This document shows positions 3,167 to 23,444 of a stretch of 23,444 nucleotides of DNA, piece by piece. The stretch is taken from contig JAHLKH010000293.1 in the NCBI GenBank assembly GCA_025526915.1, forward strand, positions 1 to 23,444, in the 5' to 3' direction. The notes beneath the pieces are model-generated. The model was not told the origin of the DNA. It ran no database searches and saw only the letters and a list, made by a program, of their open reading frames with translations. Numbering within the stretch: position 1 is the stretch's first letter; each line of letters opens with the position of its first letter. The stretch is from Entophlyctis helioformis (lineage: Eukaryota > Chytridiomycota > Chytridiomycetes > Chytridiales > Chytriomycetaceae). Made by a program: the position numbers and the translations under genes.

Positions 3167-3193
3167 GAGGGCGGGAGCGTCGGGCCGTGTGGG

Positions 3194-3199
3194 AATAAA
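3194..3199 (+). terminator. Polyadenylation signal AATAAA of the TUG gene
   Basis: A canonical AATAAA hexamer lies 28 nt after the TUG stop codon, an appropriate position for 3'-end formation. It is supported by sequence and position only. Confidence 0.5.
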
Positions 3200-3228
3200 C
3201 GCCAGTTGTTTGACGGCCAGATTGTGGC

Positions 3229-3274
3229 GGCGTCAGGCGGCGTAAAGCGGCGTAAGGCGGCGTAAAGCGGCGTG
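3229..3274 (+). repeat. Short tandem repeat (GCGGCGTAAA type)
   Basis: Four to five copies of a 10-11 nt unit (GCGGCGT with AA, AAA or CA spacers) lie between the TUG 3' end and the next gene. It is a simple-sequence expansion with no obvious function. Confidence 0.65.
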
Positions 3275-3438
3275 GCTGTGCACACACGCACACGTGAAAT
3301 CGGCGACTTTGAAGCGGAGGCGTTGCACGGGCGGAAGATTGGTTGGCAACTTGCCCTCGTCAGCATCGACGGCCTGCCTGCCTGCCAGCCTCCAAGCCAG
3401 CCGACAACGAAGCCAGCCAGCCAGCTACAACGACGCAC

Positions 3439-4761
3439 ATGGCCGATCCGTCGCAGTCGCCGCTGTCGTTTCTGGCGTCCGTGGTGTCGGCCCAGCCGCC
3501 CACGCCGACCACGCAGACGCACGCCAAGGGCCTGCCCGTCGGCCTGCCCGTCAGCCAGCCGAGTGGAGCGCCGGGCGGAGCGCTTTCTCTCTCGGGGACG
3601 CTGCCGGCGACGCACGGTGCGTGTCTGCTGGAGCTGCACGAGTGCCTGCATGAGTGCCTGTGTGTGGCGGCGACTAGATGGCCAGGTGTGGTGCACGGCT
3701 ACACGGCCGCACGGCTGCACGCACAGGCAGCCTTCTAGCAGCCTTCAGCCTTCAAGCCAGCAACGAAGCCAGCCAGCCAGCGGCGCCTCCTCATTTGCCG
3801 CCTGGTGCACACTCCGCCTGGTGCACGCACACGCACGCACGCACTGGTGCACACATCCACGCAGCCCGCCACAGCCAGCGTGGAGTGTGCACCGTCAGCG
3901 TGTGCACCGCACCGCACTGCGCTGCACTGTGCCATCCACGCCGCGCACCCTTGCACTGACACGCCGCCTGCCGTCTCCACCTGCCCGCCCTCTGCCCAGA
4001 TCCCACCTCCCACGCCAACCACCACCGCCTGCACGCCTCCCATCGCCAAGGCATCCGCCATCTGCGCCGCTCGTCTTCCTCGCCAAGGCCGTCTACTGCA
4101 CACTCGGACGCAGACGCAGACGCAGACACCAACGCCGACGCCAACACCGACACCGACATGGCCGACGCCGTTCACTCGGTGCACGCCGCCCCCAGCAGCG
4201 CCGTCGCCAACAGGCTCGTCTTTGTGACGACGCCGTCCGATGCCTCGCTCGCCCTGTACTGGCTGCCCGCCTCGCTGGCACCGCCCCCGCCCTCGTCCTC
4301 GCCCTCGCCCTCGCCCTCCCCTGCCCCCTTCCTCAAGCTCTCCGAGCTCGACGTCCTGCTGGGCTTCCCCGTCGGCCACATCGCCGCCCTCTCGCCGCAT
4401 CTGGCCTCGCATCCGTCCACCTCCGCGGCCGTCGTCTCGCTGCCTGCGTCCGCGTCGGTGGCGGCTGCATCGACGGCATCAGCAGCATCGACGGCGGCAT
4501 CGACGGCGGCCCCGCCCTCGCCCGCGCACGACGTCTACGTGCGGCCCGACGTGCTGCTCCACGTCGCAAAGAGCCTCGAGGCCAGCCCCGCCCACTCGGA
4601 CTTTGTGCGCAGCCTCGCCGACATCTCGCGCGACTCGGTGCTGTCCGGCAAGGCCGGCGCAGACCTCGTTGCCCTGGGCATCGTGCCGCATCTCTCGCCC
4701 GTCCCCGTGTCGCGCCTGCGCATCGTGGAGACGCTGCTCAATCCATCCCTGCCGTCGCTGC

Positions 4762-4792
<31 letters not shown>

Positions 4793-6744
4793 TGCGGCCG
4801 CGGCCGCTGGTGCACAGCTGCCCACTGCGGCGGATCTGCCGTCGTCATCGTCTGGCCAACATCATACGCACCACTCTCACCACCACTCTCACCACCACTC
4901 TCAACAACAACAACAACATCAGCAGCAGATGGACAGGCCCAAGGATAGAAAGCGGCCGGCTGACCAACTGTCGTCGCCCTCGGCTGCGCTCCATTCCAAG
5001 CCGCCGCTCCGCATCGTCACCCATGCTGCCTCTACCGGATCGCTGCGCTCCAACATGGGTGTCAGCGAGTCGGACCTGTCTCGCTCTGCGACCGCCGCCA
5101 ACGCCGCCACGGTCGCTACTCCCTCGTCGAGCCGGCCGTCCAAGCTGCGCAAACGCCTGTCCATCGACACGGCGTTCCCAGAGCGATCGTCGCAGGATGC
5201 CTTGGTCATGGACCAGGCGATACGGCTCAAGCAGCAGCAAGAGGCCATCATCGAAGCCCGAAAGAGTGGGTTCCTTGCACGCATCGGCTGCCATGCATGT
5301 GCTCGCCATCGTCTGACTGTTGATATTGCACGCATCCACAGAGTCATCCCAGCAACAACAGCCGCAGCAATCCCAACAACAGCCGCAGCAATCCCAACAA
5401 CAACAGCAGTCGGCATTCTCGCGTCCAGTGGGCCGTATCCGCGCTCCCGTCGCACGCGCCGACATGCCCAGCGCTTGGGCGTCCATTGACCATCTCGTAT
5501 CCCCGCGCGGCGAGTTCCCCAACCGCGAGCTGCCCCTGCCGCGCAACTTTACCCACGAGATCCGTTCCATACATCCGTTTGGCAACAACAGCGGTGCCGG
5601 CATAGACGCGGGCAACTCATCGTCGCTGTCGTCATCGTCGCTCCGATCCCACGGCCAGCATGGCGGCCATGGCGGCGTGGACAGCATGAACCACCATGGC
5701 AACAGCAACACTATCGATAACAACAACGACACCTCTAATCACTCGATGCATACCAAGCACATGCTGCCGCCCATGCCTGCCACCGCACATCCGAGCGCGC
5801 CTGGTGCCATTCGCGGCTTCTTTCCCCCACCAGCCAGCCAACAGCAGCAGCAACAACAGCAGATGCATTCCAGCTCGTCGTCGGTTTCGTCCAAGGCTGG
5901 ACAACGCGGATCCAAGACGGGCATGCATGGCGGCGGATCGGCCCACAACCGGCCGCTCAAGATCTCGACGGCCCTGGCAACCAACTCTGGGCCACTGCCG
6001 CAGCACGGCGTCTCCGCGTCAGCAGCAGCAGCAACGGGCGGCAACAGCAGCAGCACCACCAGCAACAGCACAAAGTCTGCCTCTGCCGGCAACCTGCTGT
6101 CAACGGGCCAGCCGTACACAGCCAACGGCCCGTCGTCTGGGCAGCCGCCGTCAGCCTTTCCGCCGCCGGCCATGTCACGCCAGGCGTTTCTGGGTGTGTT
6201 CGAGGCCATGTACGACCAGCACGAGACGCAGCTGCGGCTGCAAGCGACGCTCAAGGACCAGATCCGCAAATCGTCGACGCTCCTGCAGACGCTGCAGTCG
6301 TCGGGGCAGATGATCGAGGGCCTTGTGCGGCTGCATTTCCGCGAGATGCAGGTCGTGTACGGCGAAAAGTTTGGCACGGCGCTGACAGACCTGAACCGCC
6401 GGCTGGTGGGGATCGAGAACCGGCTGGGGATCCATGCGTCGGGCAGTGGTGGTGGTGCTGGTGCCGGTGCCGGTAGCGTAGGTGCTGTGGAGGACAGCGC
6501 GAATGCTGGCGGGACTGGCGTGGAAGACAGCACGAATGCCGGCGACCTGGATGAGGGCGAGAGTGCTGCGGGCGGCGGGCTGACCTCGATGGCCACCAGC
6601 AAGGGCGGCGACGCGGCAGACGACGACGGCCGTGGTGCACACGCAAGAGGCGGGATGGACGCCGAGCTCGACGGCCTGCGGTCGCGAGTCGATGCCGCCG
6701 AGCGGCAAGCGCGTTCGTTTGTTCGCGAAGATGGATCTGCATAA
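3439..6744 (+). CDS. Unidentified low-complexity protein with C-terminal helical segment
   Basis: Preferred model: exon 1 3439-3616 (MADPSQSPLSFLASVVSAQ...), intron 3617-3999 (donor GTGCGT; pyrimidine-rich acceptor ending CTGCCCAG), exon 2 4000-5265, intron 5266-5341 (GTGGGT...CACAG, CTGAC branch), exon 3 5342-6744. Total coding length is 2,847 nt in one frame, about 948 residues. If exon 1 is wrong, translation starts at ATG 4158. Residues after 4158 show moderately ordered blocks (VANRLVFVTTPSDASLALYW; FLKLSELDVLLGFPVGHIAA; VRPDVLLHVAKSLEASP) between Ser/Ala/Pro tracts. Exon 3 opens with Gln-rich repeats and ends in an 85-residue helical block around 6173-6430 (FEAMYDQHETQLRLQATLKD, SSTLLQTLQSSGQMIEGLVR, LHFREMQVVYGEKF). 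Gln/Ser/His richness suggests a nuclear or regulatory protein, but I cannot name the family. No frame breaks are needed. The next coding region starts only 47 nt downstream. Confidence 0.75.
5342..5415 (+). repeat. Polyglutamine-coding CAG/CAA tract
   Basis: Mixed CAG and CAA codons encode repeated QQQPQQSQQ units immediately after the 5266-5341 intron. Similar Gln runs recur near 5840-5865. They are in-frame coding microsatellites of the preceding gene. Confidence 0.7.
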
Positions 6745-6791
6745 ATCGGCACCTGAAACTTTTTCTTCATTTTGCCCATAAATAGAAATTG
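6745..6791 (+). promoter_or_regulatory. T-rich 47-nt spacer: core promoter or intron 3' end
   Basis: This is the only spacer between two same-strand coding regions. It holds a pyrimidine tract (CTTTTTCTTCATTTTGCC) followed by CATAAATAG. That is either a TATA-like element for the downstream gene, or a polypyrimidine tract with an acceptor (AG at 6784-6785). In the latter case an in-frame phase-0 donor GTTCGC at 6721 would join the two coding regions. Sequence alone does not decide. Confidence 0.35.
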
Positions 6792-7623
6792 ATGCAGGAG
6801 GACACCAGCCCGCTGGCATCGCCCGTCAGTGCACCCACATCGCCCACCGACGCCGTTGCGTCCATGGAGCCCATGGAGGCCCTCGAGGCCCTGGCGCCAA
6901 TGGCAGGCAAGCTCGGCCTCGAGCAGCCGCTGCTGCCGCCATCGTCCCGCCTCACGTTCAACTTTGACGACCTGATGCTGTCGTCGCTGGCTGCCGCACC
7001 GCTGCTTGCACCCACCGCCGAGGAGGATGGCGACAGCGGCGCCAATGGCAGCGCCGGCGACGAGCACGTGTTGACGCCCGCGACGGCCATCCCGCTTTCG
7101 CCTGGAGCGGCCTCGCTCGGCGACGGCTGGCTGCTGGACCTGGACCAGGCGCTCCCGGCCGCAGCCGTCACGACCATTGAGCTCTCCACCACCACGACCA
7201 CGACCACCACCAAGACCACCACGGCCGATGATGCCGACGACGCCGTGCACCACGATGTTGTCGATGACGAATCCACCGGCTCTGGCGGTGCGCAGATGGC
7301 TGCCGACGACGGCACGCCCGCATCGCCTGTCGAGGCGGCCGACGCCGACACGACGTTCAGCGACTACGAGGACGCCCACGACGGCGAGGACGGCGAGGAC
7401 GCCAGCACCCCCACCGACGCTGCTGCCCCTGCTGCTCCCCCTGCCGACGACAAGCAGCTGTGGTTCAGCAGCGGCGAGTCAGGTGATGTGCACCACGAGA
7501 GCGGCACTGGCGACGCTGCAGGCGCCGCAGAGGAGCCCACGAACGCCACTTTTGAGCAGCACGGCGACGCTGCCGATGCCGATGCCGATGCCGACGACAA
7601 CGGCAGCGATGCCTACGACGACA

Positions 7624-7658
<35 letters not shown>

Positions 7659-10600
7659 TCCATCGACAGCCCGGGGCTGTTCCCGGTGCAGTTCATCCCG
7701 CCGGCCAAGCTGCACGACATCCTGGGCAGCCTCGACGACGAGCGCCTCGACTCGGACGAAGAGCCGCACGCGCAGCTGGTGCACTTTGTCGAGCAGACGG
7801 CGGCGGCGACCGCGCAGGACCTCGACGACCTGCTGGACGAGACCGCCGCGGCCGTCGAGTCGCGCCGCCCGCTGTCGGCCCAGTTCCTGTACGAGCACCG
7901 CCCGGCGCACCTCGACTTTGTGCACACGGCGCCGTCGTCGCTCAGCGAGACGCCCTCGGGCTCGCGCTTCCTCCTCGACGACTTTGGCCTGCCCGACCCG
8001 GCCGCGTCGTTTGTGTCCGTGTCCAACGCCGTGTCGCACCGGCTCTCGCAGGTCGGCCTCGCGTCGGCCGCGGCCGCAGACTTTTACAGCCTGAGCTACT
8101 CGGCCAACCCGTCGGCCGTCGCAGACAGCGAGCCGATGTCGATGCCGCTGAGGCGTCTGTCGACCGACATCGCGTCGTACCCCGAGCCCCTCGACGGCTC
8201 GCCCGACGTGGTCGACCTCAACCAGCAGTTCTACCAGAGCCAGTCGGCCGCATCCGGCAGCATCCACGGCGACTACGACGAGGCCCTTGCGTTCACGTAC
8301 GCGGGCGAGCCGGCCGGTCTGGACGGCATTGCCTTTGACGACCTGTACCCGCCGTCTGCGGCCAACGCCATCTCGACGTTTGACGACCTGTACCCGGCTG
8401 TGCTGCGCGACGATGGCGTCGACTCGGAGATTGACGACATGGGCGTGAGTGCTGATCGTGGCCTTGACCTTGACGTGGACCTTGACGTGGACGGGCTCCT
8501 GACGGCCATGATCGACGAGATGCAGGGCGCTGGCAATGACGACGACGACGACGACGACAACAACGAAGCGCAGCAGGACCAGGCACACGGCTCCGAGTAC
8601 GAGCAGTACCGCCAGTACCAGGAGATCCAGGCGCAGTACGAGATCCTGCAGCAGCAGTTTGCTGCCCAGTTTAGCAGCCCGGTCGTTGTCGAGCGTGGCG
8701 GCGTGCAGTTTGGCCAAGACTTTGACGGCGAGACGGTTCAAGTCGTTGAGGCGCTCCAGGTACGCGTGGTGTGCTGCTGACTTGTATACTGTTGTCGTGG
8801 CGTGTGCTGACGACGCGTGTTTTTGATGGGCTGGTGGCTTGGTGGGCTGTGCAGTACGGAGACGTTGAACGCCACGCCGAGATCGAGACGGCCTCTGTCG
8901 TGGAGCTTGTCGAGGCCGTCGAGATCGAGACTGTCGCCACCACGATCGAGGAGACTGTCGAGGTTGAGCAGCACGTCGAGACCATCGAGAAGCACGTCGA
9001 GATCGAGACCATCACCACCACGGTTGACGAGACTGTCGAGGTTGAGCAGCACGTCGAGATCACTGAGATCGAGACCACCACCGCCACTGTCGAGGAGACC
9101 GTCGAGGTTGAGCAGCATGTCGAAACCACTGAGATCGAGACTGCCACCACCACGGTTGACGAGACTGTCGAGGTTGAGCAGCATGTCGAGACCATCGAGC
9201 AGCACGTCGAGATCGAGACCACCACCACCACGGTTGACGAGACCGTCGAGGTTGAGCAGCACGTCGAGATCACTGAGATCGAGACCACCACCGCCACTGT
9301 CGAGGAGACCGTCGAGGTTGAGCAGCACGTCGAGATCACTGAGATCGAGACCACCACCGCCACTGTCGAGGAGACTGTCGAGGTTGAGCAGCACGTCGAG
9401 ACCATCGAGAAGCACGTCGAGATCGAGACCATCACCACCACGGTTGACGAGACTGTCGAGGTTGAGCAGCACGTCGAGATCACTGAGATCGAGACCACCA
9501 CCGCCACTGTCGAGGAGACTGTCGAGGTTGAGCAGCATGTCGAGACCATCGAGCAGCACGTCGAGATCGAGACCACCACCACCACGGTTGACGAGACTGT
9601 CGAGGTTGAGCAGCACGTCGAGATCACTGAGATCGAGACCACCACCGCCACTGTCGAGGAGACCGTCGAGGTTGAGCAGCACGTCGAGATCACTGAGATC
9701 GAGACCACCACCGCCACTGTCGAGGAGACTGTCGAGGTTGAGCAGCACGTCGAGACCATCGAGAAGCACGTCGAGATCGAGACCATCACCACCACGGTTG
9801 ACGAGACTGTCGAGGTTGAGCAGCACGTCGAGATCACTGAGATCGAGACCACCACCGCCACTGTCGAGGAGACTGTCGAGGTTGAGCAGCATGTCGAGAC
9901 CATCGAGCAGCACGTCGAGATCGAGACCACCACCACCACTGTCGAGGAGACTGTCGAGGTTGAGCAGCACGTCGAGATCACTGAGATCGAGACCACCACC
10001 GCCACTGTCGAGGAGACTGTCGAGGTTGAGCAGCATGTCGAGACCATCGAGCAGCACGTCGAGATCGAGACCACCACCACCACGGTTGACGAGACTGTCG
10101 AGGTTGAGCAGCACGTCGAGATCACTGAGATCGAGACCACCACCGCCACTGTCGAGGAGACCGTCGAGGTTGAGCAGCATGTCGAGACCATCGAGCAGCA
10201 CGTCGAGATCGAGACCACCACCACCACTGTCGAGGAGACCGTCGAGGTTGAGCAGCACGTCGAAACCATCGAGCAGCACGTCGAGATCGAGACCACCACC
10301 ACCACTGTCGAGGAGACTGTCGAGGTTGAGCAGCACGTCGAAACCATCGAGCAGCACGTCGAGATCGAGACCACCACCACCACGGTTGACGAGACTGTCG
10401 AGGTTGAGCAGCACGTCGAGACCATCGAGAAGCACGTCGAGATCGAGACCACCACCACCACGGTTGACGAGACCGTCGAGGTTGAGCAGCATGTCGAGAC
10501 CATCGAGCAGCACGTCGAGATCGAGACCACCACCGCCACTGTCGAGGAGACTGTCGAGGTTGAGCAGCATGTCGAGACCATCGAGCAGCACGTCGAGATC

Positions 10601-13600
10601 GAGACCACCACCGCCACTGTCGAGGAGACTGTCGAGGTTGAGCAGCACGTCGAGATCGAGACTGCCACCACAACGATTGACGAGACCATCGAGTTTGAAC
10701 AGCACGTCAAGATCACTGAGCAGAATGTGGAAACCATCGAGAAGCACGTCGAGACCACCGAGATCAAGACTGCCACCATTGTCGCTGCCGTTCGTGCACC
10801 ATCGCCTATTCATGATGGCGTGTTTGACGATTGGGAGGTTGTTGAGAAGCAGATCCACGTGCAGGACTACGAAACAGATGACGAGCACGTGGCTGCAGTG
10901 CAGTCGCCTGCCCAGGTCCTTCTCCCTGCTGCTGTGTGGGAGCGCATCTTCCTCCATGTGAGCAAGAGAGACCCTGCCAGCCTTCGCATCCTGCCCCTCT
11001 GCTGCAAAACGTTCCGCGATGTGTGCCGCGAGCCCTCTCTTCGCGCTTGCCTCCTCATCCATGAGTAAGTCTGTCCACGTCTCTGGCCTTGCACTCCAAA
11101 TCGCGACTTGAACTGACGCGCGTCTGTCTTTACGCCAATCAGCCACAGCCCCCAGCTGGTCATCCACCACATCTACACCACTGAGCCGCAGATGCTCACC
11201 TTTGAGCTTGCAGAGGCACTCCTTCGCCAGGGTGCGCTCCTGCCCAAGTTCTTGATCGAGACAGCCTACAGAGCCCATGCCAACAAGTCTGTTGTGCTGC
11301 CCGCTGGCACCGCCGAGTTCTTTGTCGCACATGGCTTCCGCGCGTATGGCGACAAGCTGCGCATTCGTGGTGTCGACCCTGTCGGTGAGTGTCGTTGCGA
11401 ACATTGCCATATGGATCGGCTGCGTCATGCTCACGTTTTGCTGCATACACGCAGATATCGAGGCTGCTGACCCCGACGAGGCTGCCGCCTCCCACGGCTG
11501 GCTGGACGACCCTGCCGAGCTGATCGTGTCGCTTGCTCGCCAGCCGCCCGACATGGACCGTCTTGCCGTCGTCGTCAATGAGCACCTGTATGTGCCCGCC
11601 CTCAACGCCAAGGCGCAGCAAGACTCGTTTGACCTCGGCGTCCTTTGGGACAGCTTGGCCAACCTCGCCAACTACGACCCCGTGATGCTGCATCACCTTG
11701 CCACCCATGCCGGCGTGTCCTTTGAGACGGCCAACGATGGCATCCTCCTGCGCGTGCTCCGCGACACCGAGTGGAGCATCGACACCGTCGCCTACATCCT
11801 CGCGCTCGGCTTTGTCATCACGCGCGCTGTCGCCGTCCCTCTGCTCATGGACACGCGCATCATGACACCCGACTTTGCCGGTGTGCGTGCGCTGCTCAAG
11901 GAGTACTTCCCGCACGACAAGCTTGTGGCCATGGTCGAGGACGCGCTCTACGAGCTGCTTTGCCAGAACCGCCGCGCGTCGATCCGCATTGTGGATTTCC
12001 TCATTGCCGAGTTCAAGGTCCCCGAGTCCACGATCGGCCGTGCACTTCTCGCCCACCCGTACGACATTCGCGAGATGCGCCTCAAGCGTCGCTACGTGCT
12101 GCCCATGGCCACGACGTTTGGCCTGGTGCACGGCGGCATGAGCGACGCCGTCTGGCCTGTCCTGGTTGCGCGCTTCGGCCTCGACCACGTGTTTGTCGAG
12201 TCGTGTCTCATTGATCTGCTGGTGGGCGGCACCGTGCGTGTGGCGAGCAACCCCAACGAGGTGGTCACGCCGCCTCCTGGCCGCCAGCTGTCCACGTCCA
12301 AGCAGCCCAACCGCATGCTGTTCTCGTGGATGCTCCGCCAGCGTCCGCCCGCACTTGATGAGGAAACCGAGGCGCTCTCGCGTGACTCGCTGGCTGCGCT
12401 CTACGACATGGGCGTGCCGATTCGCCCGGCCACGTTTGCGCCGGTCGCCTACATGATCTTTGCCACTCGCAAGGTGTCGCCGCGCTTCCTGGACTACATG
12501 ACGCGCATCGAGCGTGGCCTGCTGCGCATGACCTCCTCCAAGCACCTTGCGATGCCAGGCTCGTTCCCGCACGGCTCCAGCGACAGCTACGACCAGCTGT
12601 TCAATGTCGCCGAGTGGATGGCCACGTTCCGAGAGTTTGTGCTCGACGACCCTGCGTGGCTCGCCATCATGCCGGTCGAGACTGCCGCCAGCCACGCCGG
12701 CACCAACAGCAACCACAGCGTGACCATGTCGGCGGCTGGATCGGTTGCAGGCGACGATGACGCCGCTTCGTCCGTCGCGTCCATGGCGTCGCCGTCGGTG
12801 CGGTCGTCCATCTCGGTGCCATTTGCTGCCGCCAACTCGAGCGCTGCCGCCATGTCGACCGCCCCCAACCACCGCACGAGCTTCAGCAACCTGCAGGCTG
12901 GCCAGATCGGCATCACGCGCTCGACCATCAACGCGTCGTCGTCGTCCATCTTCTCGTCCAAGGGCCTGTTCCAGTCGCTCACCGAGACCGTGCGCATGAT
13001 GGACCCGCGCGACGGCCAGTGGAAGGAGCTCCGACGCTTCTACTACGCTCTCAAGGAGCTGGTTGCTCTTGCCGAGCACGTCCAGGAGGCCGCCAGCACC
13101 CAGGACTGGGTTCTCAGCAGCAGCGCCAGCAGCCTTGCCGAGCCCATGCTCCAGATGGACGATGTCGTTGACATGCAGAGCCCTGCCGTCCAATCCGAAC
13201 AGCTCTCGCAAGCCGAGACGGCAGACCTCGCCCCTGCGTCGAGCGAGCCCGTGTTTGATGGCGAGGATGTCGATGTCGATGCCGTCCACCGTCCCGACCT
13301 TGCCGTCACCACCATCGAGTCGGCCACCACGGCCATCCGCCTGACCGCGTCGACGGTCACGGGGCCGTTCCATATCTGGAAAAAGGACGTCGAGAAGGCC
13401 TTGCTGCCGCGGCTGCCGCGTCTGCCGGACCGCCGCACGACGACCGCATGCGATCCATGTCGGCCGGATCGCCCCATCTTGGCCGATCGTCGCTGCACTA
13501 TGACGGTCTGGCCGGCGAGCGGCCTGCCGGATGGACGATCGCTGCCATGGGGTGCTGTCAGCTCCACTCGTCGTGGGTGCGCAGCTGGTTCTCGCACAAC

Positions 13601-14027: not shown

Positions 14028-17000
14028 GAACAGCCGCGAGCACGACGGAGCGCCGGACGGGCACAGGGCGGCAGCCACAGCGGCAGCATCCCTGGAAGCA
14101 CGGACAGCACGGGCAGGCGAGCCCGCCACCAACTGGCAAGTCCGGCATGCGTCTGCTGCCAGATGCTTGCCACCACGCCAGGCTGACCGCTGAGTGGGCA
14201 ACAGCCACATCTGTCTGGACGTCATCCGGCACGCCTACATGGCAAAGTGCGGCCACAGCTTCTGGTGCGTGCGCCTCGCCTGCTGCGCTTGCCTCGCCGC
14301 TTGCCTCGCCGCTTGCCTCGCTTCTCGCTGACTTGCGCACATGCCCGCCGCACAGCTTCGAGTGCATCCAGCAGCATCTGGACTCGCACGCTCCCCAATC
14401 GAGCAGCTCGCAGGACAGGGACGCTGCTGTCGACGCCCAGGCCCCTGCCCCATCTGCAGAACCCCGCTGGACCGGCAGCCAGGTCTTTCCAAACTTCATG
14501 TGTGCGTCGGTGGCGTGCCCCGCTGCATGCCGGCTGCATGTGCTGCCCCGACAACGCATGCGCTCTTGGCTGACTCGCGCCGTCCACAATGGCCGCTGCC
14601 CCAGTGAACGACCTGCTGTCGAACGTCGCAGGCAAGGCTGGCCCGGACAGCGCCGCCAGACCCAGCGGCTCTGTGTCGGGACGCAAGACGCTGGTCGTGC
14701 CAGGCACCGCGGCGGATCTGCCGGCAGAGATGAGCATTGCAGACATTGACGCCATTGTGTCGACGCTGCTCGCACACAAGCAGAAGCTCAAGCGCGGCGA
14801 CCAGGTTGTGGAGCTCAAACTGCTGGACGATTCCTGCAGCAAACATTGCACGAGAAGCAGTTGATCCAGGAGCAGTTGACTCGGCAGCTGGCGTGTCTGT
14901 CGGCGCGACATTGACACGGTGCGGCGTGTGTTTGCGCGCGTCGCTGTCGATGCCGGCGCCAAGGATGCCACTGTGGGCGAGGCCGAGTGCGGTGAGAGCG
15001 AGGGCGACCAAGGAGATCTGGACGTTGGCGTGCCTGTGACGCAAACTGGGCACGGCACAGCTCAAGCAAGCCAAGCACTGGGTACCAGTCTCGCAATTCG
15101 GCAGCAGCAGCAGCCAAAGCAGCAGCAGCCCAGGTCCCAGAAGCACCCGAGCAGGACGGGCGGCCAGCCAAGAGCATGCGCCATTTGGGCAGCACGTCTG
15201 CTGTTGGCGACATGTCCGCACCAACTGTCTTGTCAACAACGTCAGCTGCAGCTGCTGTAGCAGGCCAGGATGGACCGGCATCACTGCAGTCTTTTCGTCT
15301 CGAGTAGACAGCACAGAGCCTTTAGAGAGCCATACCTACACAGATGCCACACTCCACAAACGCACGCATTCGGTGAGCGTTTGCTTGTAGCCGAACCATG
15401 GCAAGAAAACGTGGACTGACTCGCAATGGCTGGATAGGAAATGGCCTCAGGCCAAGCGACACAACACAACTTGCACAGCCAAGAGCAGAGCAGCTTGGCA
15501 GCCAAGATCCAGTCCGCACCGAAAAAAGACGCAAGTCAACATCTCGTCGTTACCTGGCATTGAAAAGGCCGAGGAACGGCTGCCTCTTCTCAAGGCACAC
15601 ATGGCAGACCTGCAAGGATTCTACTTTGGTAAGCGGCTTGGAAATGGTGAGTTGTCGACAGGTCGACACGCGCGAAACGACGCCGCATTTGATTGTTTCT
15701 GCCACTGACAACAAGCACCACCCGGCTCGGCCACACGCCACAGCCAAGAGTGCAGAAGCAGACGTGAAAGACGCCCATCATCCAGCCACGGACCTTCCCG
15801 AGTCTCTTGCCAGATTCTCGTCGTCGCTTGCAAGTTTACGCGATACTCACGGTTCCGCACACTGGCCACACTCTTCTACGGCGACAACATGCTGCCGAGC
15901 GTGTCGTCGATTGTGTCCTCGATCGAGTTTGACAAGGACGACGAGTTTTTTGCCAGGCCGAGTCAGCAAGAAGATCAAGATTTACGAGTACGCGACCGTG
16001 GTTGTCGACCCACGAGAGCTGGCCAGCTCTGCCGGGTTCGTGACCAAGGACCAGAGAACCCTATGCGCACAACCGGCCTCGGATACAGCCGCGTTCCCAC
16101 CGAGCAGCCGCATCACAAGGCGTGCAGCAGCAAGTCGAGTCGGCTGTATTGCAGATTTTCGTCGCAGATGATGCAGCAGCAACAGCAAACAGGGCATTTT
16201 GCGTCACTGGATCGATCGCTTGTCAGAGCCGCCATGGATGCAGCCATTTATGGTGTGCAACTTGGTGGCATGGGCAGCGGAGCGGGATACTGAGCAGTAT
16301 CCTTGGCCGCGGAGGAGTGTCGCAACACAATTTTGCGAGCTCAATGGCAGGGAATGCGTCAGGGACAGGCTCGGGACGCGGGCGTCTGCATCGGCTGGTG
16401 ATCCGTCCATACCGCGTGCATCCGATCAAGTTGCCGGCGCAGACGCTGACGACGGCGATGTTGGCGATGGAGCGGACGAGCTTGACGAGGATGTGGATCC
16501 ACGCCTTGAGCATGTTCCCAAGTTCCCTGTTCGCGAGATGACGACCAAGTCCAAGGTCAGCTGCCTGTCGTTCAATTCGTACGTCAAGTCGTATCTGCTT
16601 GCATCAGACTACGACGGCATTGTCGGGCTGTGGGACACTGCGACTGGCACGAGCATCACGTTGTTCAAGGAGCACGAGAAGCGTGTGTGGTCGGTTGATT
16701 TCAGTCTGGCAGACCCCATGCGGATTGCAAGTGGCGGCGATGACATGAAGGGTATGCGAGCTGATGATTCACGTCTGGATGCATGGGCGTACGGCGGTGG
16801 CTGACTGACTGACTGGCTGGCTGGCTGGCTGGTGCGGATACAGTCAAGCTCTGGTCGGTCAATCAGCGACACTCGTTGCGACGATTTGACGCCAAGTCGA
16901 ACGTGTGCTCGGTCAAGTTCCATCCAACCTTCACCAACCACGTCGCGATAGGATCAGCGGACACCACGCGCACTACTACGATCTTCGCAATCTGAGTGCG

Positions 17001-17653
17001 CCGGTGCATGTGTTCAAGGGCCACCGCAAGGCCGTGTCGTATGTCAAGTTCCTCAACAACCATGAAATGGTGACGGCATCAACCGACTGCACCTTGCGGC
17101 TCTGGTCGTTACGCGATGGCGTGACAGGCACGGCGGGCAAGAGCGGCGTGCTGCCTGGAAACAAGCCAGACATGAGCGGCATTTCTGGAGGCAGGCAGCC
17201 AGTTTGGATGGATCGGCGATGACGCGCTGCAAGGAGGCCAGGATGGCGAGAACAGCAACTGCATCCGATCCTTCTCGGGGCACTCGAACGAGAAGAACTT
17301 TGTTGGGCTGGCGATCAACTGCGACTCTGAGTTTCTGGCGTGGCAGCGAGACGAACGAGATGTTTACATACTACCACCAGCTGTCGCGCCAGTGCTCAAG
17401 CACTCGTTTGGCACCACCATGGATCGCATCACGTAAGATGCAAGTGCATGCATGGCGTGTGTGACTGCGCTGACACGTGAACATGCCGCTGCTGCCGCTG
17501 TTGTTGTCTTCGTTGCTGGCGTGTCAGGGCGAGATGCTGCCGCAGACGGACCCTGCAGTTTGTGAGCTCGGTGTGCTGGAAGCGCAAGACGGGCAATGTG
17601 CTCGCGGCAGCCAACTCGCAGGGCAGATCAGGGTGCTGGAGCTTGTCGAATGA
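14028..17653 (+). CDS. COP1: COP1/RFWD2-like E3 ubiquitin ligase (RING, coiled coil, WD40)
   Basis: COP1 proteins ubiquitinate transcription factors, often with Cullin-4/DDB1 partners. Parts in order: RING ([20 protein letters not shown], then [10 protein letters not shown] after intron 14265-14355, then [11 protein letters not shown]); VFPNFM, then NDLLSNVAG after intron 14502-14604; coiled coil ([34 protein letters not shown]); introns 15373-15437 and 15647-15743; the signature [19 protein letters not shown] and [19 protein letters not shown]40 blades ([36 protein letters not shown], intron 16752-16843, [37 protein letters not shown]); intron 17433-17527; final blade [20 protein letters not shown], then a frame break, IRVLELVE and stop 17651-17653. 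The spacing to plant and animal COP1 is close. The first exon and start (14028, or 13968) are uncertain. About fifteen one-base frame breaks are needed, many in homopolymers. The first RING cysteine is not resolved. Confidence 0.9.
14281..14333 (+). repeat. CTTGCCTCGCCG tandem repeat in COP1 intron
   Basis: Three to four 12-nt copies (CTTGCCTCGCCG and close variants) lie in the intron between the two halves of the first RING zinc site, upstream of the CTGAC branch motif and the CACAG acceptor. Confidence 0.6.
16801..16832 (+). repeat. CTGA/CTGG tetranucleotide repeat in a COP1 intron
   Basis: CTGACTGACTGACTGG, then further CTGG units, fill the 3' half of the 92-nt intron 16752-16843. The repeat multiplies the CTGAC branch-point motif seen in other introns of this window, so several equivalent branch sites are available. 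Confidence 0.7.
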
Positions 17654-17800
17654 ACGAGGGTGGGCAATAGGGCGAGGGAATACCGGCAAACCGCCGGCAA
17701 ATGGCGCCGACATTCATCCAATTACCAAGCGTTTTGGAATTGGATTCGACCCGAGAGGCGACGAATGCAAGCCCACATATCACGTGATTGAAGGTTCGAG
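17654..17800. other. Short convergent intergenic region, candidate Fanzor guide-RNA/3'-end region
   Basis: 147 nt separate the COP1 stop (17653) from the Fanzor stop (17801). Besides room for two 3' ends, it contains two hairpins (17683-17697 and 17717-17744). In Fanzor and TnpB loci the guide RNA is characteristically encoded at the nuclease gene's 3' end, so this is the natural place to look. That assignment is inference from position; no guide RNA sequence family is recognised. Confidence 0.3.
17717..17744 (-). other. Perfect 11-bp hairpin with one bulge downstream of Fanzor
   Basis: TCCAATTACCAA (17717-17728) pairs with TTGGAATTGGA (17734-17744). All 11 bases of the right arm pair, with a single bulged A on the left and a 5-nt loop. 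It lies 57-84 nt past the Fanzor stop. It could be part of a guide-RNA scaffold, a transposon end or a 3'-end structure. Confidence 0.55.
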
Positions 17801-18269
17801 TCAGCAAAGAACATGCGACGACAGGCGGCGAGGCACATCCAACCAGGGGCTTACCTTGCACCATTGTTTGAAAATGATTGATAAGTGACCCGTTAGGTCG
17901 ATTGGGAGGTGCCCCGATTCAAAGTGTTGGTGGTTGTGCTGGAAGTCAGAGCACGTGGAGTGGCACTTGGACTTGCTGGCACGCTGTCTGCGTGTTGGAC
18001 GCTGCTGGACGACAGGCGGATCTGGTGCTGGAGGCTGCTGGACGACAGGAGGATCGACTGGCGTGTGCATCAAATAGAGCGGCCGGTGTCCAAAGAGCAG
18101 ATGCCACAGTGCGACCATCCCGATGTTGGTGGCTCCAAGCACATCGCGGTGGTAGACAGTCTTGCATGGTATGCACTCGTAGCGTCGCAGGTTGGTGCGG
18201 TTCTTGTCTGGGATCCGCTGCTTGCACTGCGGCACATCTGGCTGGTCAGGTTCTCGTTGCAGCGGTAGA

Positions 18270-18316
<47 letters not shown>

Positions 18317-21300
18317 TCAGTTGGTGCACAGATGGATGGATGGATGGATGGACAGCGTGGCATCAGACGCACATAGGCATATCCAGACGACCGGCAGATG
18401 CCTGATGAGAAACTTCTCAAACACAGCATGCCGGCCACCTTGGCCTGTAAAGTCGATGCCAAATGCCCAGACAACGGGAATGTCCTTCTCTGGGTTGCTG
18501 ACAGGGAGGCCTTGAGACGCAGCTGATGCGCGCTCTCCAGTCTTCGATCCTGCCAGCTTCATGATGCCCTCAAGAGCCTGTTCCGCGATCTGACGTGCTG
18601 TTGCTGCGCATGGTGAACCGCTTGGCCTTGACCTTCTGTGGAATGCCATGCCATGCCATGCCATCCAGTGCAATCAGCAGGCGATCAAGCAGCATGGCGG
18701 TCATGTCAATGGGCATCCAGAAACAGAAAACGTACCCGTGCATTCAGGAATGGCGTGCAGTACGCATGGCAGCGCAGATCCCAAAAGGCTCTCTCGCCAG
18801 GCTTGACGTTTGGATCGGCATGCTTTGCTGTCTTGAATGCAATGGCCGCCTGGATGTCGGCTGCCTTGGCATATCGATTGTTGAGCCTGGCACAAGAGGC
18901 AGGCACTGTGAGTTGATCTGGTCAAGAGTGCGCGTGGCAGAGTCATTGCATGCATACCACCGCTGAAGGCTGTGCTCGGCTCGTGCCATGCCAGAGGAGA
19001 GCACGTAGTTGGACTCGAGGGTATAGGTGAAGGTTGCCAGATCACCAGCATGCTGGACGCGCCATACATGTACCGCTCGCCCCAATCAATGCCGACAATA
19101 CGCACAAACCGGTAGCCCTTGTTGGTGAACAACTTGTTGGCTTTGACAATGTTGAGCAATCGCTGCGAGGCGTAGAAGCTGAGCTTGCCCTGTCATGCCA
19201 TGACATGAGTGAGGAATGTGCAATGCATGTGCACCAATGCGCGAGGTTGGCATGCAAGTGGCTTACAGGATTGGGCGCTTTTGGCTTGGCGGCTGATGGG
19301 TCGGCAGGATCGGCGGCTGTGGATGGCATGTCAGTCGGTGTGGACAACAAGTGTGCGTCTGGATTGGCACAGCAACTCACATTCGCCATCCAAGTGATCA
19401 TGCCCATCATGCCCATCGTCATCATCATCATCATCATCATCATCAGGCATGCCATCAGCAAGCCACGGCTGCTCGCCTAAAGATGCCATGTTGGAGCATG
19501 CAGATCAAGGCGGCAGTCAGAACCAATGTGTGCACCAAAGCATTCAAGCACGCCACATACTGCGAGGCGACTCTGGACGGTCTGTGCGATAGTCCAGCGC
19601 CAATTGAAAGATGCTGTATCCGTCCGGTCCGGAAGCTGCCCACCGCGGTCGGTTTGCTTGGAATTGCAGGAGGAAGACCATCGATCACGGCGTCTATAAA
19701 CTCCTGGCGCTCCTTGCCAACCAGACCCTCGTGCTCAGCCAGTTGCATCGCATCAGCAATGACTGCGTCATTTGCTTGGACCTGCTCAAACACCTCCTTG
19801 TCGGCCTCGTCTGGCGTCTGATAGCGGCCTTTCTTGGGCGGAGGCCGGGAAGGAGTATGTTGAGGATACAGAGCTCCTTGCATTGCTGAACGCCTTCTTG
19901 ATCGTCGTGTTGGATGAGCGAGGCCCAGCTGGCTTTTTGGTAGTCTTGGATAAAAGTGGAGTGTTAGCATCATATCATGTAGACATGGCATAAACAAGTG
20001 CGACCTACTGAGTACAGCAAGGAGCTGCAGTCGCAAGTATGCCAAAGCAGCACTTTGCTCGCCACGGATGCGATCATCACTACTCCCCATCACCGCCCAA
20101 AAGAGCGTTGTCTCGGTGATGAGGATGAAGGGATCGCGGCTGGCTGCTTGCGGGCACAGCTTGTTTGTCGTGCCAGCAAGCTTGGACAGCTCGTAAAAGA
20201 TCACGATCTCTGACCGAGACACATCAGGCACCAGCGTCTTGAGCTCGTGCAGCTCTTGCGGGACTGTATCAATACCGCTGTCCTCAGTGGCCGAGGAAGA
20301 GCTGGATGCCGCGTCCTTGGTGGTGGTGCCTTCCTGCCCCGTCGCTTCTTGGGCCTGCCGCCCTTGTTGGCTGACGAAGAGGTGGACCGGCCCCGCTTGA
20401 GACTTGAGGTGGGAGGAGCAGTGTCCAAAGTGGCCAGCGGTGTGGCGTCCTCGATCGCCGGTGGTGTAGCGTCCTTGGCAGCCTTGGCAGCAGCAGCCTT
20501 GGCGGCCTTGGCAGCCTTGGCGGTCTTGAAAAGTGCCGCAATCCACACTCTCACGTCCTCAATGGATGCACTGGGCATCATCTTGAGGGCCGCAGTGACG
20601 GCCAGCTCAGACTGGCTAGAGATGTAGTGCCGCGCGAGCATGCCACACACATCCCTGGCCAGATTGCTGTAAATGTCATCCTTGCATCCGCGCAAAGGCT
20701 GCCATCAAGCCTGTAGGGCAAGACAGCCTCCATAGTGCCCGCGTGCACAGCGTCTGCCGTCTGCGCACTTGTGTGCATCAAGGCCGACAGCTCTGCATCT
20801 GCCTGCATCACGGCTGACAGGATCGCGTCGGCCTGGATTGTCACCGTCTGCTGCGTCGCGTCCATCATGTCGACATCCATCATGGCTGCTCGCATCGTGT
20901 CCATCTGTGCCATGTCCATCATGGCTGCTTGCCGCGCGTCTTTCTGGAACGCGTCGCTGTTGCCTGTGGCCGCCTGCTGCATTGCATCAATCAGTGACAT
21001 GTCCATCAGCATTGTGCACGTCTGCATCATGTCCATCCGTACCGTGTCATCCTGCAGCTTGGCTGCGTTGGTTTGCAGCACCCTCCGCGTCCAGGTGCGA
21101 TGGATCGTCATTTGCATGACTGTTACGATCCAGGAGTGGATGGCATGCTTTGTTGCTTGTGGCTGCACCATCATGCTGTCCGCCAGGACATAGCCAAGAT
21201 GGCGCAGCAGCATGTCCACAGCACCGCCTCCACCTGATATACTGCTGGTGAGGGCCGTAAGCAGCTCATTTGCTGATGGAACTGCTGCTGCTGGTGGTGG

Positions 21301-21504
21301 TGGTGGCGGTTGGACGGCTGAAGATGAAGCGCCGGTGCTGCTGGCTGCTGTCGGCTGATTGTGCACATCATGCTCGTCCTGGATGCATGGGTCGTCAGGC
21401 TGCACAGGCAGCTCGTGCTCATCGTGCTCATCTGCTCGTCCTGCTCGTCCTGCTCGTCCTGCTCGTTTCTGCTCGTCCTGTCGTCTGATCGTCGAGGTCG
21501 CCAT
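17801..21504 (-). CDS. Fanzor (eukaryotic TnpB-like RNA-guided RuvC nuclease), multi-exon
   Basis: Fanzors are TnpB homologues that cut DNA with a guide RNA and are spread by transposons. Coding runs right to left, with introns 19945-20008, 19477-19560, 19317-19380, 19190-19266, 18636-18735 and 18271-18372. The N-terminal part (21504 to about 20300) is Met/Ala-rich, then has a basic NLS-like GGRPKKRRGRK (about 20335-20370). The middle part includes RSEIVIFYELSKLAGTTNK and DEADKEVFEQVQANDAV. The core is KLSFYASQRLLNIVKANK, RFVRIVGIDWGERY (RuvC-I Asp, 19085-19087), YVLSSGMARAEHSLQRW, WDLRCHAYCTPFLNARKVKA, KDIPVVWAFGIDFTGQGGRH (RuvC-II-like strand), ENLTSQMC with PQC, then YECIPCKTVYHRDVLGATNI (second Cys pair and RuvC-III Asp). 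The stop is about 17801. The E-x2-TS-x2-C order fits Fanzor better than bacterial TnpB. About ten one-base breaks interrupt it (for example near 18233 and 18390). The start is uncertain: ATG 21504 overlaps the upstream coding region, and both may be one gene. Confidence 0.82.
18272..18315 (+). repeat. (GT)22 microsatellite at a Fanzor splice acceptor
   Basis: An uninterrupted GT dinucleotide run reads as (CA)n on the Fanzor strand. It forms the end of intron 18271-18372 right up to its CACAG acceptor, just after the CTGAC branch motif. Length polymorphism here would alter the branch-to-acceptor distance of the exon that encodes the zinc ribbon. Confidence 0.9.
18330..18351 (+). repeat. GATG tetranucleotide repeat
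   Basis: Five to six GATG units lie in the same Fanzor intron, on the donor side of the branch motif. Confidence 0.75.
19419..19445 (+). repeat. (CAT)n tract encoding poly-Asp in Fanzor
   Basis: A trinucleotide run, read on the minus strand as GAT codons, encodes an Asp-rich stretch (MPDDDDDDDDDGHDGHDH) in a small Fanzor exon (19476-19381). Confidence 0.8.
21425..21480 (-). repeat. GACGAGCAG-type tandem repeat at the gene junction
   Basis: Read on the minus strand, AGGACGAGC units repeat about four times and then degrade into GACGAGCACGATGAGCAC, which encodes DEHDEHELPV in the Fanzor frame. In different frames it gives GRA, TSR or DEQ repeats. It is the point where the upstream frame stops and the Fanzor frame continues, making an indel here likely. 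Confidence 0.6.
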
Positions 21505-23444
21505 GCATGTTGGGTTGCTTGGCAATCTTGGCAGTATCAAAGGCGCAGATCTTGAGAGCCGTGTCACTCTCGAGAGTCACCAAGCTGCCATAGCGAGGGA
21601 TTTTGTGTCGCTGCTGTGCGGGCCGGTGCCGTACATGTGCCAAACAATGATGCCCTGCTTGTGAACGCATCCACCTGACAAGAGCGTCGCGCTCTCGTCC
21701 TCATCAAAGTCCTCGGGTTGACATAGTAATACTGCGTCAGCTTGCCTTGGCTTGCCTCCAGGACACAGTACTCCAGAGGCAGAGGCGCGTCTGCATTCAG
21801 CTTGACCAGATCCGCGACCATGGCGCCGATCAAGGCAAGGGCAGCACGCCACAAGCCGGCCGTGAAATAGTAGACTGTGAGGGTGGTGTCGTGGCTGATT
21901 GAACTGGGTGTCTGCTCGGCGAGTGGTGTCTTGGTTTGGGGCCCAAAAAACTTGGTGTTTGCGAGATCGCATGACTGCATCTCCTGCATACCACACAAGT
22001 CAGCATCCACAAAGCCAAGCAAACAGAGCAGCATGCCGATCAAAACCCCATACCGCCATTTGACAATCTGCTCAGGCGGCTGTGTGCATTGCCTTTAGGT
22101 CTTGGCTGTCCTTTGGGATGGGTGGCCGCGGCAAGTGTCATGACTGGCATCGCAATCATGCGGCCGAGCTTTGCAAGCTTCTGACGAGTTGCCACTCGAC
22201 TGCCAGCAACCCATCTGTGGCATGACACACGTGTCAGCAAGCACATTCAAGGCACATGACATGCCATATGTCGCGTACGCCTTCTTCTTGCCAACAGTTC
22301 CGCCTTGCGAGCATGCAGGCCTGACTTCTTCTTGTTCTCTCTGATGATCTCCTGTAGTGTGGCCTTCTCTTTTTTCTTGGCACGCTCCTTTGTGTGCGCA
22401 GCCCGCTTGGCTGCCGTGAATTGGAATGGCGCCTGTGACGGTTGGATGCAGCATCAGGCGGCCATTCCAAGTGCACCAAACACAGCCACGATCGCCAATG
22501 GTGCACCAAACTCACCGTTGTCTCAGTGTCGGCAAGATCGCCAACGGGAAAGGTCTTGGAGCATGCCAGTGCTGCGAAGATGTTGTTGGACAACGTGGTG
22601 GCTTGGGCGGCGGTGGAGGAGGGCCAACCTGTGGAGTGGGATGGTGAGCAATCGCGCCAAATCATTCCATGCACATGCAGTCAGTGGAAGTCGAGACGCA
22701 CTGCACTTTGCTCAATGATGGACTGCAGCAGGGCGACGGCCTTTTGGCGCTGATTGATGAGTGTCGGCGGTTTGGCGTTTTCTGGATGTGGACCTATGGG
22801 GTGCTCCAGGAAATACAGCCAGGCTGAGGCCTTGTCGTGGATGCAGCGACATGGATCGGGTGCAAACTCGCGGTGGTCATCCTGCCGTGGTACTTCGACT
22901 TTCTGCGTCTCTGTGTCCAGTACTATGCATTCAACACAAATGGATCTGTGAGTGGATGGCTGTTGAATCATTTCAATGCAATCAACACCTACTGGGAGTG
23001 GATGTATGCCGGTGGGATGCGCCATGGCGGATTGGCAATCTTGTCCAGCTGCGTCTGCATTCTCATTGCTGCGTTCTGTCCAGAAGCAATGGATCAAGTC
23101 AGCCGCATTCAAAATCAGCAAATGCACGTGGTGCAAGAGCAACAGCATGCATTCAAGCCATGCAAACATACCAATGCGCGATAGATTGGCTCATCTGCTG
23201 GGAGGAGCTTAAAAATGCCATCTGCTCCAAGAAACTGCTCGCTGGCAATCTGCAGCAGCTGGGCACTTGCTGCTTTGCAGATGGCGCCAGGATGTCGCGA
23301 CGCGTGACAGCATCGTAGCTGCTCGCAAGGCGGTTGACTGTGCACCTGATGATGGTGTCGAGTGCCACATGGCAACCCTTCACCTCACTGAAGGCAGCAT
23401 CCAACCGCCTGCTGCCAACAGTGCTGCTGACAAGCTGCTCGACC
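21428..23444 (-). CDS. Unidentified seven-exon coding region, partial at right edge; may be the Fanzor N-terminus
   Basis: Coding enters at the right edge. Exons (minus strand) are 23444-23172, 23075-22993, 22945-22702, 22628-22516, 22432-22279, 22214-22054 and 21983-about 21428. All six introns have GT-AG ends and are 47-96 nt. Landmarks: RRLDAAFSEVKGCHVALDTI, QLLQIASEQFLGADGIFKLL, RMQTQLDKIANPPWRIPPAY, CVECIVLDTETQKVEVPRQD, NQRQKAVALLQSIIEQ, a Lys/Arg/Glu coiled-coil-like block (KERAKKKEKATLQEIIREN), RVATRQKLAKLGRMIAMPVM, DTTLTVYYFTAGLWRAALAL, PLEYCVLEASQGKLTQYYYV, and YGSLVTLESDTALKICAFDT. I recognise no family. A CVEC...CRC cysteine/histidine cluster is present. The frame ends at TGA 21425, inside a GACGAGCAG repeat whose other frame is the Fanzor ORF, and acidic DE/DEH repeats continue across. 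A single fused gene broken by one indel is therefore as likely as two genes. Confidence refers to coding status and strand. Confidence 0.62.

Follow-up and report, generated by a model that had tools for sequence, protein, structure and literature searches.

Bao and Jurka described Fanzor1 proteins encoded by DNA transposons of eukaryotes (2013, PMC3627910). According to the excerpts of PMC10711439 drawn on here, the Fanzor fingerprint consists of DPG, found "near exclusively" at RuvC-I, together with the Ealt glutamate. The same excerpts divide Ealt sequences into a D-Phi-G clade and a DPG clade, place the Fanzors in the latter, and argue for a single prokaryotic source of all Fanzors (PMC10711439). 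The locus compared with these systems lies in a 23,444-nucleotide stretch of Entophlyctis helioformis DNA, referred to as the window, which is the entire contig JAHLKH010000293.1 (C293) of a 29.57-Mb assembly in 482 contigs. With a probability of roughly 80%, the locus is read as a copy of a large DNA transposon of the cut-and-paste type, in which one gene of 19 exons would encode a protein of about 1,965 residues with a C-terminal RuvC/zinc-ribbon nuclease of the TnpB/Fanzor superfamily. The DNA itself shows the copy number, the inverted repeats, the 8-bp duplications, a shared exon-intron structure, a long open frame, the catalytic motifs, and low divergence at the 3′ end.

The mobile element, about 9,000 bases long, exists in well over a hundred copies, and the locus is one of them. 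A search with 1.4 kb of the RuvC region yields copies that are dispersed and whose main pieces, the window's own excepted, are 84-95% identical (40 scored of 298 candidates). Of 205 candidates, 150 were scored for PF07282, and all of these putative family members exceed its cut-off. When up to three mismatches are allowed, the 26-base right end occurs 164 times and the 25-base left end 79 times, while the reversed left and right patterns, used as a control, do not occur. Pairing of the left ends with 102 right-end coordinates (100 of the 164 and two others) gave a partner to 43 of the 79; 29 of these pairs span 7.2-9.8 kb, 10 are longer, and four are short, three of them near 1.0 kb and one of 2.2 kb. 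The left 500 nt are 90-95% identical in 40 copies scored of 148, subfamilies included.

The ends of the element are imperfect inverted repeats of about 25 bp (GGCCCGGTTCTCATACC... and its counterpart), identical at 19 of 25 positions. Target duplications were sought in 20 copies with a fetched left flank, of which eight lacked the canonical start and two a usable right flank. In the remaining ten, an 8-bp duplication with at most one mismatch is present in eight, corresponding to seven of nine distinct sites since C67 and C297 share flanks. Duplications of 5-7 or 9-12 bp are found in no copy and of 4 bp in two, and 10,000 shuffles gave a mean of 0.19 and a maximum of 2 against the eight observed. 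Terminal inverted repeats and target duplications of fixed length are the marks of a cut-and-paste DNA transposon. Retrotransposition of the non-long-terminal-repeat type, considered when the first flanks seemed variable in length, was rejected because introns are kept and the duplications measure 8 bp once the true left end is used.

The gene is read as 19 exons in one frame of about 1,965 codons, made up of 1,735 open codons of the copy C140a (exons 3-19) and 230 consensus codons (exons 1-2). Its C-terminal part was modeled on an alignment of 21 copies, including the window's, in five subfamilies (f1-f5) whose consensuses were built from 11, 4, 2, 2, and 2 copies. Subfamilies f3, f4, and f5 are represented by two copies each, so the f3 and f4 consensuses are close to single copies. 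Introns were picked by hand to preserve the frame, and their carry-over to other subfamilies served as the test. Across introns I12-I18 of the 21 copies, donors are GT in 147 of 147 cases and acceptors AG at the aligned position in 137 of 147. The GT-AG introns of the original prediction therefore stand, but not its count of six, as seven lie in 17801-21504 and 18 in the gene. After intron removal, the f2, f3, and f4 consensuses contain no stop to the end of the model (804-825 codons), while that of f1 has four stops, caused by a shift in an acidic simple repeat, and that of f5 yields no open frame. An open frame through RuvC-III is present in six of the 21 natural copies (C140a, C239, C168, C35, C158, and C1), and the window's copy is not among them.

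Upstream, 11 further introns extend the same frame, which begins with an ATG at consensus position 1516. The consensus has no stops in exons 1-11; in exon 12 it loses the frame through a variable DEQ repeat, but this exon has no stops in C24, C198, C239, and C140a. Nine natural copies were checked over the exons that each holds, and the longest joined open runs are 1,735 codons in C140a (exons 3-19), 1,654 in C1, and 1,555 in C158, followed by 1,325 (C239), 1,068 (C35), 980 (C168), and 588-679 (C240, C49, and C5). In C140a the model frame contains one stop, compared with 63 and 39 in the other two frames; the frame of the C140 copy has a stop near 17895-17893 (read by eye), where the conserved right end begins. 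Since the joined frame stays open in natural copies, a single protein appears to be the simplest reading. The long N-terminal extension that had been predicted, with its basic stretch KKRRGRK, is present, and in the consensus model the N-terminal part goes on for some 950 residues beyond 21504 in the upstream direction. A codon-position test of the frames gave no information in the catalytic exons because these are nearly identical.

The last 330 or so residues are read as a RuvC/zinc-ribbon nuclease region of the TnpB/Fanzor superfamily. Spliced C140a protein matches PF07282 (Cas12f1-like TNB zinc ribbon) with 39.2 bits against a cut-off of 26.3 (E 8e-10). The prediction of a minus-strand gene with introns that is Fanzor-like in its RuvC/zinc-ribbon part is supported. 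Among nine frames of the unspliced window, PF07282 was the sole relevant family and fell below its cut-off (best E 4.1e-4). TnpB NF040570 matches all six aligned C-termini, the best at 1.4e-6, far under its cut-off. Cas12u/Cas12f models (best 6.6e-8) and a phage "transposase" family (2e-9) likewise match all six. Coordinates, available for the first sequence only, place its TnpB, Cas12f, and phage matches within residues 233-289, the stretch from Ealt through the zinc ribbon to RuvC-III.

All of the predicted motifs are present on the minus strand: GIDWG (see Table 1), AFGIDFTGQGG (18466-18444), ENLTSQ (18255-18238), HRDVLGATNI (18151-18122), and KKRRGRK (20350-20330). C140a carries the superfamily signature D-X(125,275)-[TS][TS]-X2-C4-X(5,50)-RD, with 188 residues between D51 and T240, TSQM-C, zinc cysteines C244, C247, C264, and C267, and five residues before R273-D274. 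Ealt is found as E237-NLTSQM-C244, six residues ahead of the first zinc cysteine, and is invariant in all six sequences. The zinc spacings of 16 and 6 lie inside the pattern C-x2-C-x(12,18)-C-x2-C-x(4,8)-D given in the excerpts of PMC10711439, whereas RuvC-I and Ealt are 183 residues apart against 120-160 in that article's search pattern. RNA-guided DNA cleavage is a putative function of the encoded protein, by analogy.

Divergence between the subfamilies, taken as the mean over the ten pairs of five consensuses, changes along the gene. It amounts to 38.5% (47.1% at third positions) in the final 1,264 nt of exon 12 and to 32.8% in exon 13, then to 8.4% in exon 15, 4.8-8.3% in exons 17-19, and 2.3-10.3% in introns 14-18. 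Protein constraint does not account for low divergence in introns, and the 3′ catalytic part has therefore probably been exchanged recently among subfamilies. Beyond the gene, the stretch from its end to the right end diverges by 40.1% and the right 130 nt by 11.4%.

The right end itself is 89-100% identical in 40 copies scored of 206 candidates, with a mean divergence of 11-16% between subfamilies against 40% immediately upstream. It contains a hairpin between CTT and AAG whose sequence varies among copies. Among 26 sequences with eight distinct versions of the hairpin, self-complementarity is above that of shuffles in five versions (P 0.003-0.023) and not in three, including the window's own. 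Rfam gave no match in 17500-23444 at gathering score. The right end is a plausible guide-RNA scaffold, and the region at 17.6-17.9 kb earlier suggested as the source of a guide RNA falls in it and remains a plausible candidate.

Pfam scans of exons 1-4, 6, 12, and 12-19 recognized no transposase and no serine-recombinase family, a recombinase of the IS607 type being the mark of Fanzor2 elements. Several observations weigh against the reading of the locus as a transposon that encodes a guided nuclease in one long gene. Outside f1, introns 4 and 7 are not GT..AG at the aligned positions, owing either to shifted sites or to a shifted alignment. Sequence searches find the zinc-ribbon/RuvC-III part only and do not recover RuvC-I, which is DWG rather than DPG in all six sequences. 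Because Ealt is exactly as described but DPG is not, the enzyme is filed as a variant of the TnpB/Fanzor superfamily and not as a canonical Fanzor. The structure model has a mean predicted local distance difference test score (pLDDT) of 37.7, its input being the unspliced natural frame with the RuvC-II/zinc-ribbon piece and without RuvC-I. No solved Fanzor in the PDB was significantly matched by sequence or profile search. The best rows include the TnpB-like protein L79 of mimivirus (E 1.4) and a nuclease, RNA-guided and AI-designed, at E 0.49; both are non-significant and stand among unrelated proteins, and the profile search found neither. Covariation in the right end is close to nil (RNAalifold on 16 aligned of the 27 collected ends; term 0.11, with both sides changed in one pair out of 33). 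The picture of exchange is not clean either, as introns 12 (20008-19945, 19.7%) and 13 (19560-19477, 18.3%) are unusual in falling below their neighboring exons (33-39%), and exon 16, which holds RuvC-I, diverges by 17.8%.

A mechanism may be proposed in which transcription of the conserved right end yields the scaffold of a guide RNA and the flanking host DNA supplies the guide. The protein would bind this right-end RNA, by analogy with TnpB and Fanzor systems as portrayed in the excerpts of PMC10432273 and PMC10711439, and the nuclease would cut the matching empty site or the sister chromatid. Repair from the occupied copy could then keep or restore the element, spread it, and homogenize its copies. 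Since no transposase was recognized in the exons scanned, insertion is ascribed to another enzyme, acting in trans or contained in the rest of the protein. Low 3′ divergence is the part of this scheme seen here; the other steps would follow from analogy.

Exons 1-4 hold, in order, HVD, FHVDG, YEAD, NDSD, and HTDF, then GIAAA. These stretches are presumed to be FEN1-like metal-binding acidic motifs. PF12813 (XPG_I_2) is matched below its cut-off (E 0.012-0.05), and among six aligned sequences in two, PDB searches with the N-terminal exons returned no FEN1 and nothing relevant, and profile-profile comparison with four archaeal FEN1 proteins gave a probability of 0.05% and no match. The structure model of the XPG-like piece has a pLDDT of 36.1. 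An XPG/FEN1-like N-terminus is thus an unconfirmed, motif-based lead. A bolder proposal, quite unlikely as a whole, is that of a giant polypeptide joining an XPG-type, flap-endonuclease-like N-terminus to a D-Phi-G/Ealt RNA-guided RuvC nuclease that was captured independently of known Fanzors. This would be the element's own mobility machine, combining guided cutting with end processing, and its catalytic module would have passed between old subfamilies.

The same N-terminal motifs could instead belong to a 5′ gene adjacent to a separate 3′ Fanzor-like gene. The known Fanzor SPu-1-1p has just 633 amino acids in the excerpts of PMC3627910, and the low-complexity stretch in exon 12 could contain a start. 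The joined frame, however, is open over exons 3-19 in C140a, and C1 and C158, which belong to other subfamilies, are open for 1,654 and 1,555 codons, making two genes an unlikely arrangement. The length of these frames bears equally on the view that the family is dead and non-autonomous and its nuclease frame a relic. Such a view agrees with the 15 of 21 copies not open through RuvC-III, with the lack of a recognized transposase in the exons scanned, and with the existence of end-to-end derivatives of about 1 kb, but three copies from three subfamilies each retain more than 1,500 open codons and the breaks in the window's copy resemble assembly indels. Extinction is accordingly considered improbable, to about the same degree as two genes.

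The origin and status of the enzyme have also been considered. Eukaryotic capture of a different TnpB lineage, from the D-Phi-G/Ealt clade and not the DPG/Ealt clade of known Fanzors, would explain a DWG that is invariant in six aligned copies with Ealt six residues ahead of the zinc ribbon, and it agrees with the split of Ealt sequences in the excerpts of PMC10711439, where Fanzors fall in the DPG clade. A Fanzor1 with one P-to-W substitution would have the same appearance, and a second capture is regarded as doubtful. Far less probable is a domesticated, single-copy host Fanzor adapted to spliceosomal expression. The introns and basic stretch on which that prediction drew are present, but they do not set the gene apart from mobile elements, as multi-exon Fanzors are known within transposons, with five exons in CRe-1 and ten in CRe-2 and CRe-3 (PMC3627910, in excerpt). 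Domestication is rejected because of the copy number, ends, and target duplications of a dispersed transposon with inverted repeats, 8-bp duplications, 164 right ends, and several long open frames. The cut-and-paste-type transposon with one 19-exon gene is therefore the preferred reading, and the coordinates of its features in the window are given in Table 1.

Table 1. Features of the transposon copy and its gene model, in window coordinates.
Feature	Coordinates	Strand	Basis
Transposon copy, right (3′) end to contig end	17656..23444	−	Where copy homology stops
Extra ~47 nt past the usual right end	17656..17702	−	Common to C140, C1, and C240
Conserved right end, candidate guide-RNA scaffold, finishing in the 3′ inverted repeat	17703..17918	−	Copy conservation
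Exon 19: Ealt glutamate and TS, zinc ribbon, RuvC-III HRDVLGATNI	17888..18270	−	Spliced C140a
Exon 18, VVWAFGIDFTGQGG strand	18373..18635	−	21-copy alignment
Exon 17	18736..18886	−	21-copy alignment
Exon 16, RuvC-I GIDWG at 19093-19079	18958..19189	−	21-copy alignment
Exon 15	19267..19316	−	21-copy alignment
Exon 14, acidic repeat	19381..19476	−	21-copy alignment
Exon 13	19561..19944	−	21-copy alignment
Exon 12, longest; low-complexity DEQ repeats and basic KKRRGRK	20009..21983	−	No stops in C24; within 750-codon open frame
Exon 11	22054..22214	−	Gene model
Exon 10	22279..22432	−	Gene model
Exon 9	22516..22628	−	Gene model
Exon 8	22702..22922	−	Gene model
Exon 7	22993..23075	−	Gene model
Exon 6, partial (contig end)	23172..23444	−	Gene model

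The bounds of 17801-21504 first given to the locus are too narrow, as the element exceeds both (from about 17656 to past 23444) and the gene exceeds the upper one. The contig terminates inside the element and lacks the left inverted repeat, exons 1-5, and a portion of exon 6, whereas a sister copy on C140 runs on to its left inverted repeat at C140:47144-47168. This sister is one of the two copies without an 8-bp duplication. For most fetched copies homology stops at 17701-17707, and for C1 and C240 it reaches 17651-17658. The window is 98% identical to C140 (L009, C140:35000-44900) over 14527-23444, and since this identity includes the host WD40 gene, the C140 stretch is probably the other allele. 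The host stretch 14527-17650 differs from C140 by four substitutions and 25 indels in 3,124 bases; the element differs by 75 substitutions and 39 indels in about 5.8 kb (one at the contig end), an indel density similar to that of the host. With 25 indels against four substitutions in the host flank, the indels and frame breaks of the window look like assembly error, and decay was judged a less likely cause. This suggests that the contig is an under-polished haplotig, and the higher substitution load of the element fits either conversion from other copies or mis-polishing with reads from other copies.

The conserved gene predicted to lie tail to tail with the element gene is indeed there: a WD40 gene at 16172-17436 on the plus strand (PF00400, E 1.6e-7), ending about 200 nt from the right end of the element. 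It is presumably COP1-like. Elsewhere in the window, a long tandem-repeat frame (...VEQHVEI...TTTVDETVE...) is open on both strands, at 8750-11068 (plus) and 8738-11671 (minus), with a sub-threshold F-box match toward its C-terminus. Between window 17651-23444 and L009, the density of substitutions is about ten times that of the flank. Three copies that measure about 1.0 kb and retain both ends lie at C35:164492-165480, C109:11836-12879, and C436:7860-8911 and are like the Spu-1 "ghost" elements. Just inside the left end are tandem units of about 28 nt, such as GGTGGAATCGCTGTGATTGGTCGATCCT, in variable number (L029 near 7400-7520; L041-L060), each containing ATTGG, the reverse of the CCAAT box. 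One copy, C23 (L017+L032, oriented ~1006-7661), is about 5.5 kb longer than the corresponding part of C49 and C168, presumably through a nested insertion. Copies C36, C122, and C60 (L014, L019, and L054) have the same 3′ flank and are therefore either segmental duplicates or set in a repeated target. A scan of viral contigs for relatives gave 46 pattern matches, none of which was confirmed.

A eukaryotic family present in many copies that combines Ealt with DWG means either a wider Fanzor fingerprint or a second capture. The low divergence of 3′ exons and introns in otherwise old subfamilies makes it possible to test the idea that guided cutting is followed by repair from one copy to another, and the 164 detected right ends with their flanks, all in one genome, form a natural set from which guide and target-motif rules might be derived.

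Like the Fanzor1 family, the element has a C-terminal signature, a variable N-terminus, and multiple copies, and some Fanzor1 elements also possess inverted repeats, target duplications, or introns (PMC3627910). It differs from them in having DWG for DPG, 19 exons, and about 1,965 residues, and in its size of about 9 kb, its 8-bp duplications, and the lack of a recognized transposase. Both D-Phi-G and Ealt are present, as in the D-Phi-G/Ealt TnpB clade, which is described apart from the DPG clade holding the Fanzors; this likeness is one of motifs alone (PMC10711439). SPu-1/SpuFz1 of Spizellomyces punctatus is likewise bounded by inverted repeats, between which no transposase was found, and exists in full, partial, and end-only "ghost" copies, although it has about 2.1 kb and a single open reading frame in contrast to the approximately 9 kb and 18 introns found here (PMC10432273). 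In MCi-2 of Mucor circinelloides, subfamilies share a nearly identical 3′ Fanzor region and differ in the 5′ part, as they do here, but MCi-2 is described without inverted repeats and with duplications of 11-12 bp, compared with the inverted repeats and 8 bp of this element (PMC3627910). The subfamilies of Entophlyctis helioformis further differ from those of MCi-2 in being alike at both ends and in the last exons but different in the middle.

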